Shown here: piece after piece, positions 1,588-7,138 of the stretch
Position numbering within the stretch: the first letter of the stretch is position 1
Layout: each line of letters begins with the position of its first letter
Origin: a bacterium
GTDB taxonomy: Bacteria > Bacillota > Clostridia > Oscillospirales > Acutalibacteraceae
Assembly: GCA_020625875.1 (NCBI GenBank)
Contig: JAHLAX010000032.1
Span: forward strand, 1 to 64,000
DNA length: 64,000 nucleotides
Direction: 5' to 3'
The notes under the pieces: model-generated
Seen by the model: the letters and a program-made list of their open reading frames with translations, nothing else
Told to the model about the DNA's origin: nothing
Database searches by the model: none
Translations under genes and position numbers: made by a program

Positions 1588-1719
1588 CGAATTTTTATGC
1601 TTACACCAAAATTTACACCATTTTGTGCAGATAACAATCAGTTGAGTAAAATTAGTTGTTGAATTTTACGAAGAATTATGCTACAATTAATACATAAAAT
1701 AATACAGGGAGGTTGTACT

Positions 1720-1989
1720 ATGCCAAATATCAAACCGGTATCGGATTTACGAAACTACAACGAGGTGTTGAGCGATATAGCTGTCGGTGAGCCTGTTTTC
1801 CTGACAAAAAACGGCAGGGGAAGATATGCTATCCTCGATATTAAGGAATATGAAAAACTCCACGCTGAATTAAAACTCGTCAGCGAACTGCTTGCGGTTG
1901 AGCGAGAAAGAGAAGCAGGAGCGAAATATTATACTTTAGATGAAGTCGAGGATTCGCTGGACAAAATTTTGGGAGATAATAATGCGTAA
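1720..1989 (+). CDS. Phd/YefM-family antitoxin
   Basis: MPNIKPVSDLRNYNEVLSDIAVGEPVFLTKNGRGRYAILDIKEYEKL; RBS GGGAGG at 1708; track start 1678 is too early; promoter TTGAAT-N17-TACAAT at 1659-1687. Confidence 0.9.
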   Translation: MPNIKPVSDLRNYNEVLSDIAVGEPVFLTKNGRGRYAILDIKEYEKLHAELKLVSELLAVEREREAGAKYYTLDEVEDSLDKILGDNNA

Positions 1990-2290
1990 ATATAAGGTGT
2001 TAGTTTCTCCGAAAGCGAAGGAAATGCTGGATAAGCATATTGATTTTCTCGCTCAGGTCAATGCAGCTTCGGCGAGGAATAATAAAAACGAGATAATGAA
2101 AGGCTTGCGTTCTTTATCGGATATGCCTGCAAGATTTCCGTTGTTTGAAAGTGATTATATCAAATCAGGCAAATACCACAAGATGTATATCGAAAAATGG
2201 TATTTGGTACTTTATCAAATTATAGATGATACCGTTTATGTAGAGTATATTATTGATTGCAGAGAGAATTATAGTTGGTTGTTAAAGTGA
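1982..2290 (+). CDS. RelE/ParE-family toxin
   Basis: MRKYKVLVSPKAKEMLDKHIDFLAQV…; start overlaps antitoxin stop (ATGCGTAA). Confidence 0.88.
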   Translation: MRKYKVLVSPKAKEMLDKHIDFLAQVNAASARNNKNEIMKGLRSLSDMPARFPLFESDYIKSGKYHKMYIEKWYLVLYQIIDDTVYVEYIIDCRENYSWLLK

Positions 2291-5224: not shown

Positions 5225-5253
5225 TTGACAAAAAATGGTTTTCAATATATAAT
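5225..5253 (+). promoter_or_regulatory. Consensus sigma-70 promoter TTGACA-N17-TATAAT
   Basis: Perfect hexamers and spacing, just upstream of the riboswitch. Confidence 0.8.
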
Positions 5254-5277
5254 ATAATAAATTAATATTTCTAGATA

Positions 5278-5356
5278 TAAAGGCAAAGCTGTCGAAAGGC
5301 AGTGACGCAAAGCGAAGAGCCTAAGGTGCTTTTGCACTATGGTCGTCTGGTTGCAT
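5278..5356 (+). ncRNA. Cyclic-di-GMP-I (GEMM-I) riboswitch
   Basis: GGCAAAGCTGTCGAAAGGCAGTGACGCAAAGC…GCCTAAGGTGC..GCACTATGGTCGTCTGGTTGC matches GEMM-I conserved blocks. Confidence 0.9.
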
Positions 5357-5428
5357 CTATATGTGTCCTTATATAAGTGGGCATATTATAGGTGCTTTTT
5401 TATTTTTAAATATAAGCGAGGGATACTT

Positions 5429-7087
5429 ATGAAAAAACTATTGTCCTTGATAATTGCCGCGATATTATTGATTACGGCATTCTGCCTGCCTGTCAATGCT
5501 TCTGTAGGTCATGTGAACGCGGGTGATACGCTGAGCTTCAACGGCGCTACATCATCAAACGCTTTCGGTGATTTGCTTGATTGGACAGGTATTGTTTTCG
5601 AAAACGCGAATAGTATAATAGATGTTGAGGGTACGTTAGCTGTCGGCGGTGACTTTAACTCCACCAACGGATTATCGGTTAACGGCGGCGCTTACGGATT
5701 ATCTCCCGCGTCTACTGAGGATGTAGCTTTCCTTGTTAACGGCAACGCGAAAATCAGCGGCTACGGCAACGTGTGGGGACAGACTGTTATAGGCAACTCG
5801 GACGGCAACACCTATCGCCTTTCGAACGTTACTCCGTCAGGAATAACAAACGGAAAGTATACTGTAGCGAACTCAACACAGTATTTTGCGGACGCTAAGA
5901 GCACAGCCGCTGCTGTGAAGACTGCAGTTCAAGACCTTTCTGTTAACGGAGTATGCGACATATCTAACGGCATATATAAGTTTAACGGTAACTCGAATGA
6001 GAATGTACTGGTTTATAATGTTGATGATTCGACCATTAATTCTTATCTTTTTGATTTCACTATCGCCGAAGGTCAGACAATTGTCGTTAATTTTACAGCG
6101 TCAGATTCAATCAAGTTTAAGTACGGCGCTTACAAAATAAACGGCAAGATGGATCCCAATTATCTGAGAAAATTTAACCGCAATATCATAATCAATGTTG
6201 TCAACGCGACTGAGATTGAAATGACTTATACTGAATTATACGGTATTCTTCTGGCTCCCGACGCGAATTTGACGGGCAGAGGTTCCAACGTATGCGGAAC
6301 ATCTATTTTGAACGGACTTACAGGCTCAAACGGTTTTGAAATCCATGAAGGCTACAACAACAGCTTTATTCCCGCTGTTCCCGTGTCGGCTTCCGCGTCT
6401 GCGGGGCAGTCTTCCGAGACCTCTCCCGAAACTTCTTCTGAAGCCACTCCCGAGATTTCTTCCGAAGAAGCTGCAGAAACCGTAAGCATAAGAATCGACA
6501 CCCCAAAGAAAATGGCGGTAGCTTTTGTTGACGGCACCGTATACTACAATGGCGATATGAAAGACGTTGTTGTCGGCAGAGAATATCCCTTCCAGATGTG
6601 CGCTGTCAACTGGGATAACGGCAAATATGACGAAAACGGCAACGGAATCCGCGGCAGCGTTGTTTACAGAATGAAGGTTGTTCATCAAAACGAATTCAAC
6701 GAGCTTGCGCGCGCGGCTAAGGCTAATTCTGAGAGATACACAGTCAAGGGAATTGACATCATCGACAACGAGAATAAAACAATCATTGTCAACTGTGACG
6801 CAAGTGATTTCCATCTTGAAACCGATGTTAACAACTTCTTTATGGCTTACAGATTCCATTTCGCGAATGGAGATTACAAAAAGACCACAGGTATTCAGAA
6901 CGTAATCAACACTTCTCTCGAGAGCCTGTCAGTCAACCTCCCCGCTGGTTCTACAATCACCTGCAACGCGTATGTCGGCGGTGATATGGTCGACAGCGAT
7001 AACGTGTTTATCACAAACAACTCAGGCGAGGGCATCTATGAGGATGAATACCTCACAAGCGTAAACGACTACACTTGGAATCACTAA
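5429..7087 (+). CDS. Secreted choice-of-anchor A family protein (adhesin-like)
   Basis: Signal peptide; NAFGDLLDWTGIVFENANSIIDVEGTLAVGGDFNST… fold signature; S/E/T-P linker; track start 5339 falls inside the riboswitch. Confidence 0.75.
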   Translation: MKKLLSLIIAAILLITAFCLPVNASVGHVNAGDTLSFNGATSSNAFGDLLDWTGIVFENANSIIDVEGTLAVGGDFNSTNGLSVNGGAYGLSPASTEDVAFLVNGNAKISGYGNVWGQTVIGNSDGNTYRLSNVTPSGITNGKYTVANSTQYFADAKSTAAAVKTAVQDLSVNGVCDISNGIYKFNGNSNENVLVYNVDDSTINSYLFDFTIAEGQTIVVNFTASDSIKFKYGAYKINGKMDPNYLRKFNRNIIINVVNATEIEMTYTELYGILLAPDANLTGRGSNVCGTSILNGLTGSNGFEIHEGYNNSFIPAVPVSASASAGQSSETSPETSSEATPEISSEEAAETVSIRIDTPKKMAVAFVDGTVYYNGDMKDVVVGREYPFQMCAVNWDNGKYDENGNGIRGSVVYRMKVVHQNEFNELARAAKANSERYTVKGIDIIDNENKTIIVNCDASDFHLETDVNNFFMAYRFHFANGDYKKTTGIQNVINTSLESLSVNLPAGSTITCNAYVGGDMVDSDNVFITNNSGEGIYEDEYLTSVNDYTWNH

Positions 7088-7101
7088 AACATAATAATCA
7101 G

Positions 7102-7138
7102 GCGCATAACCGTTATCTTTTTCGGTTATGCGCTTTTT
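7102..7138 (+). terminator. Rho-independent terminator
   Basis: GCGCATAACCG / CGGTTATGCGC then TTTTT. Confidence 0.85.

Follow-up and report, generated by a model that had tools for sequence, protein, structure and literature searches.

In a stretch of 64,000 nucleotides of a contig from a gut bacterium akin to Ruminococcus (JAHLAX010000032.1, positions 1 to 64,000; hereafter the window), the gene for a secreted, adhesin-like protein is preceded by a c-di-GMP-I (GEMM-I) aptamer whose 3′ end is shared with a strong intrinsic terminator, an arrangement that recurs in front of genes encoding the same unnamed C-terminal domain. It is probable that this leader is transcribed constitutively and terminated by default, and that c-di-GMP allows read-through into the adhesin-like gene, which would be one member of a c-di-GMP-activated regulon. 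The features of the locus, and of a second switch in the same genome, are compiled in Table 1.

Table 1. Features of the riboswitch-controlled locus (window coordinates) and of the second c-di-GMP-I aptamer of the genome (contig C232)
Feature	Position	Strand	Details
Sigma-70-type promoter TTGACA-N17-TATAAT	5225..5253	+	12/12 consensus positions
Transcription start (+1) of leader	expected near 5260	+	
c-di-GMP-I (GEMM-I) aptamer	5272..5358	+	RF01051, 75.0 bits, E 6.7e-13, all 87 model positions
5′ strand of closing helix P1 (AUAUA)	5275..5279	+	complementary to 5358-5362 (UAUAU)
Equivalents of Vc2 G20, A47, C92	G5282, A5309, C5354	+	mapped by model position
Intrinsic terminator hairpin, 43 nt	5353..5395	+	16 pairs, one bulge, 10-nt loop
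U tract of terminator	5396..5407	+	TTTTTTATTTTT (T6AT5)
Shine-Dalgarno GAGGG	5418..5422	+	6 nt upstream of ATG
Secreted protein, 552 aa	5429..7087	+	signal peptide, pAdhesive_15/choice-of-anchor A, linker, unnamed C-terminal domain
pAdhesive_15 / choice_anch_A domain	5564..6340	+	aa 46-304; ice-binding (DUF3494)-like fold
Low-complexity Ser/Glu/Thr/Pro linker	6365..6481	+	aa ~313-351; pLDDT low over aa 321-348
Unnamed conserved C-terminal domain	6482..7084	+	aa ~352-552, last ~200 residues; two alignments (A1, A2), own AlphaFold2 model
Terminator after gene	7100..7135	+	-20.6 kcal/mol, z -7.5, then T run
Second c-di-GMP-I aptamer (L033)	C232:5714-5797		65.3 bits

The original prediction had a perfect consensus promoter driving a GEMM-I aptamer, and both elements were recovered: the promoter matches the consensus throughout, and the proposed covariance-model check returned a full-length RF01051 match of 75.0 bits, against a gathering cut-off of 35 bits, with bounds of 5272-5358 compared to the 5278-5356 given originally. 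This match is the sole above-threshold Rfam match in the 64-kb window, and the 2.4-Mb genome contains one further c-di-GMP-I element. A strong promoter is also typical of related leaders, the best pre-aptamer match reaching at least 10 of 12 positions in 37 of 51 (2.9 expected from shuffles). The ligand contacts G20, A47 and C92 named for Bc1/Vc2 (PMC11218506) have the equivalents listed in Table 1, a GAAA tetraloop is located at 5294-5297, and the position corresponding to Vc2 G20 is occupied by G in the window aptamer as well as in 69 of 72 related aptamers; the window aptamer is accordingly presumed, from its sequence, to bind c-di-GMP. In other bacteria, an A at the G20 position has been associated with c-AMP-GMP sensing, and such specificity was rejected for the window aptamer, which carries G, not A. 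Three other leaders (L090, position 2122; L091, 2121; L096, 2050), all of which serve adhesive-type genes with the C-terminal domain, do possess A at this position, and the ligand may vary among close relatives.

The region between 5357 and 5428 had previously been described as lacking a clear-cut terminator, which is incorrect. The hairpin at 5353-5395 (GCAUCUAUAUGUGUCC, a 10-nt loop, then GGGCAUAUUAUAGGUGC) and the UUUUUUAUUUUU after it constitute a strong intrinsic terminator (-20.1 kcal/mol, z -4.6; none of 200 shuffles equally stable), which the pattern scan overlooked because its 10-nt loop exceeds the 8 nt permitted. Its 5′ arm begins at G5353, inside the aptamer, takes in C5354 and also absorbs the 3′ strand of P1 (5358-5362), such that terminator and aptamer/P1 overlap over 5353-5362. 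Computed leader energies, which are ligand-free and silent on folding kinetics, amount to -44.4 kcal/mol for the terminator state versus -29.2 kcal/mol with aptamer and P1 enforced, i.e., a gap of ~15 kcal/mol. Since the terminator state is far more stable than the P1-closed state, termination is expected to be the default, as would suit a kinetically controlled ON switch, and the ligand would have to act during RNA synthesis; and as the terminator and the ligand-closed helix are mutually exclusive, the leader is predicted to be a transcriptional ON switch operating by antitermination. The mechanism, originally left open between transcriptional control and control of the ribosome binding site, can on the basis of this overlap be called transcriptional. 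According to the proposed mechanism, the strong promoter would drive constant transcription of the leader, and without c-di-GMP the aptamer 3′ end would pair into the terminator hairpin, causing a stop upstream of the gene. If c-di-GMP were bound during transcription, C5354 (the Vc2 C92 equivalent) and the P1 strand would be kept in the ligand pocket, and with the 3′ end thus held no terminator would form and the secreted adhesin-like protein would be produced.

The overlap is strongly conserved. A terminator with a stability of at least 8 kcal/mol (-8 or better) and a 5′ arm that begins 5 nt or more within the aptamer is present at 59 of 65 aptamers preceding genes with the C-terminal domain, where 6.35 would be expected from shuffled downstream sequences. 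The terminator stems of four sequence groups differ in sequence and yet retain pairing, with the caveat that stem pair types were assigned by counting positions from the stem base, which is an approximation. Among 26 other c-di-GMP-I elements of the bacterial family, an overlapping terminator was found at five and a separate terminator farther downstream at 17; as the overlap is common for domain genes and rare elsewhere, the polarity of the switch seems to vary with its target in this family. Two of these 26 elements precede a flagellar-like (L004) and a chemotaxis-like (L014) gene, these names having been assigned by eye. Separately, ON-type overlapping terminators were seen at L019 and L030 before a gene that, by eye, resembles those of VTC/CYTH-type polyphosphate polymerases and has a membrane protein gene behind it.

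These observations bear directly on the opposite polarity, whereby c-di-GMP would favor the terminator, as in the Clostridioides difficile flgB leader, and the protein would be made at low c-di-GMP. Class I riboswitches of C. difficile have without exception been reported as OFF switches (PMC11477304), and the many family leaders with a separate downstream terminator are compatible with such behavior. An OFF switch, however, requires an antiterminator that is disrupted by the bound aptamer, whereas in the window leader the terminator itself takes up the aptamer 3′ strand and the ligand-pairing C; binding and termination here compete, and relatives generally have the same overlap, which renders the OFF reading improbable.

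The link between riboswitch and C-terminal domain emerged at two scales. A protein search in 300 genomes of the family returned partial matches to the C-terminal part in other genes, the best of which sit behind c-di-GMP-I elements (G066, with two divergent genes, G114, G050, G137 and G002). The pAdhesive_15 domain was present in 14 genomes of this sample, and a c-di-GMP-I element adjoined it only in the two that have the C-terminal domain (G000 and G066); none was found near adhesive-domain proteins without this domain in the 12 other genomes, nor was a c-di-GMP-I riboswitch detected in three sampled genomes of the same genus. Searching alignment A1 against 84,980 species genomes yielded 66 loci, representing about 51 genomes (counted by record title), mostly rumen or gut Ruminococcus-like MAGs according to the organism names in the records. 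Rfam scans of these loci, combined with a profile search for every domain copy, identified 75 reading frames with the C-terminal domain, from which five cut at the contig start, three without a usable start, L147 (leader under 100 nt) and L137 (broken frame) were left out. A c-di-GMP-I aptamer (RF01051 or RF03167) is located 14-208 nt upstream of the start codon in 60 of the 65 domain genes with a readable leader, and at least eight of these 60 possess tandem aptamers. Three aptamers occur at L113, L114 and L115 and two at L101, L102, L103, L105 and L108; nearly all tandem aptamers have their own overlapping terminator. The five readable leaders without an aptamer (L131, L135, L138, L144 and L148) belong to beta-helix types without the GACGCAAA core. 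The L131 and L148 domain genes lie directly downstream of a frame that ends like the C-terminus of a GGDEF protein. c-di-GMP-I leaders were also noted before a small lipoprotein family (CG-DPNVK.., 'RSYELRFLFA') near domain genes, i.e., at L101 4199-5171, L129 3817-4647 and L106 448-533 (minus strand), and this family is probably a second member type of the domain-gene regulon.

It is the C-terminal domain, which makes up the last third of the protein and had escaped the original prediction, rather than the adhesive domain, that tracks with the riboswitch. The converse proposal, in which the riboswitch accompanies choice-of-anchor A adhesins generally and the domain is simply carried along in a single gene lineage, draws on the co-occurrence of domain and adhesin in the closest relatives; it is contradicted by the restriction of adjoining riboswitches to the two domain-bearing genomes among the 14, by the mostly riboswitch-preceded domain genes that have no adhesive module and by the domain tree, and has little to recommend it, being slightly less probable even than the OFF reading. 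Apart from a short type without a name, the N-terminal modules combined with the domain comprise pAdhesive_15, Beta_helix_3 and Flg_new/InlB-type repeats. Along the domain tree, 13 switches of module label are counted (minimum 4, shuffled mean 32), a figure derived from simple motif labels that left ten rows as 'other'; three of these rows (L101, L109 and L112) are adhesive types by alignment, so the 13 switches are an overstatement. The minimum forced by the starred branches is three changes for each of the three main module types. The sister domains (support 100/99) of one adhesive and one short-type gene in genome RGIG2388, together with the label changes, indicate that modules and tail have recombined or been converted repeatedly. 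Genes of different types are often adjacent, and each then has a riboswitch of its own (L094, L096, L104, L107, L109, L110 and L112).

The protein encoded in the window corresponds to the original description of a secreted choice-of-anchor A protein with a Ser/Glu/Thr/Pro linker, both family profiles scoring above their cut-offs: pAdhesive_15 (PF20597) with 101 bits against 23.8 (Pfam E 1.3e-28) and TIGR04215 choice_anch_A with 83.4 bits against 29 (E 2.1e-23). A Foldseek search with the adhesive domain returned 6bg8_A (probability 1.00, E 4.3e-5), and this domain is an ordinary family member, clearly belonging to pAdhesive_15/TIGR04215 and sharing the DUF3494 fold. The start had been assigned correctly to ATG 5429, the mechanical open reading frame start at 5339 lying inside the aptamer; this ATG, with its GAGGG, opens the signal peptide, and the same start position is found in orthologues. 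Least probable among the alternatives is translational control, by which the aptamer would alter how accessible the Shine-Dalgarno sequence is, the hairpin at 5353-5395 being incidental, since the Shine-Dalgarno region, although predicted to be partly paired with coding sequence in the full-length transcript, is so without involvement of the aptamer, while T6AT5 lies directly 3′ of the hairpin and both hairpin and U tract are kept in related leaders despite stem changes. In view of the terminator that follows it, the gene is probably monocistronic. Elsewhere in the window (1678-2290), two overlapping small open reading frames resemble, by eye, a Phd/RelE-type toxin-antitoxin pair.

Unlike what the family name suggests, the 552-aa protein contains neither an LPXTG motif (LPxT[GANS]) nor a hydrophobic segment beyond the signal peptide, and hence no transmembrane anchor, its C-terminus being the unnamed domain; a C-terminal surface anchor is not needed for a choice-of-anchor A domain match. 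The genome encodes eight sortase matches. Of the original proposal that c-di-GMP controls surface attachment, the sequence gives good support to the control of a secreted adhesin-like protein, and a role of this protein in surface attachment is an inference.

As the full-length AlphaFold model (pLDDT 67.6 overall) is weak in its C-terminal part, the C-terminal domain was judged from its own AlphaFold2 model, which is compact and mostly beta, with one helix (pLDDT 89.9, pTM 0.85). In an alignment of 36 domain sequences, 23 columns are invariant and the C-terminal end is conserved around a tryptophan. Against Pfam, the best match of these 36 members was Big_8 (E 0.0012, in six members), and NCBIfam returned no convincing match; the best hit of a PDB sequence search had an E-value of 0.16, and Foldseek against the PDB returned none at E<=0.001. 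The top Foldseek matches had low TM-scores to unspecific beta proteins and were dismissed as relatives. The domain is thus without a Pfam, NCBIfam or PDB relative. Because secreted adhesin-type proteins that have no other anchor share it as their C-terminal part, it may retain these proteins at the surface or in a matrix. The window protein would belong to a regulon activated by c-di-GMP in Oscillospiraceae of gut and rumen; its members carry this common, undescribed domain after N-terminal modules of various adhesin types, and jointly they probably form a surface or matrix attachment layer. More tentatively, and falling somewhat short of an even chance, the domain itself could be a surface-retention or matrix-assembly tail that defines a c-di-GMP-ON attachment regulon, with swapped modules (adhesive, beta-helix or repeat) and own antitermination switches that are sometimes double or triple.

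The second c-di-GMP-I switch of the genome has the same architecture as the window leader, with an overlapping terminator of -21.6 kcal/mol, and precedes the gene for a secreted beta-helix protein that is interrupted at the end of contig C232. The start of contig C185 (L081, 1-1565) consists of the identical 97 bases, and its frame continues into the C-terminal domain; both switches of the genome control C-terminal-domain proteins. The genome codes for four GGDEF domains and a single EAL domain: two GGDEF genes are located just upstream of the C232 switch, and a GGDEF-EAL gene and a GGDEF gene lie ~65 kb farther along the window's own contig. The assembly is a MAG with an estimated contamination of 5.7%, and the window contig itself bears riboswitch, protein and cyclase genes. 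No c-di-GMP-II match was obtained in this genome, nor in the control genomes, so the negative result does not establish absence.

The window switch is a known kind of riboswitch. Its closest counterpart is Bc2 of Bacillus thuringiensis cap, encoding a collagen adhesion protein, an antitermination ON switch tested in vitro and in vivo (PMC4933901), which likewise combines a class I aptamer, an adjoining terminator and an adhesin target. For the window leader, ON behavior is a prediction from sequence alone; it also differs in its target protein family and in belonging to a whole family of switches with one common C-terminal domain. The C. difficile c-di-GMP-II riboswitches of CD2831, CD3246 and the pilin operon similarly activate adhesins at the transcriptional level (PMC11477304), as predicted here, but belong to an unrelated aptamer class, and in C. 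difficile the protease PPEP-1 releases these adhesins (PMC11477304). Vc1 of Vibrio cholerae gbpA shares the class I aptamer and the positive control, predicted for the window, of a secreted attachment protein; for Vc1 itself, neither a terminator nor an anti-Shine-Dalgarno sequence was found (PMC4744006), whereas the window leader has a clear terminator. Tandem c-di-GMP-I riboswitches (PMC9481103) are paralleled by the domain genes with two or three class I aptamers, while the window leader has a single aptamer. In the open-licence literature, nothing relevant was found on choice-of-anchor A, pAdhesive_15 or c-di-GMP riboswitches in Ruminococcus, and the domain and its c-di-GMP-I ON regulon in this gut and rumen lineage appear to be undescribed there.

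c-di-GMP signaling in gut and rumen Ruminococcus-like bacteria seems to have been little studied. The proposed regulon would provide a direct readout of c-di-GMP through riboswitch-controlled secreted proteins, predicting that attachment proteins are turned on through RNA, and it offers experimenters a recognizable, structurally predicted and as yet unnamed domain. Attachment to plant fiber or mucus would be the natural candidate for the process involved.
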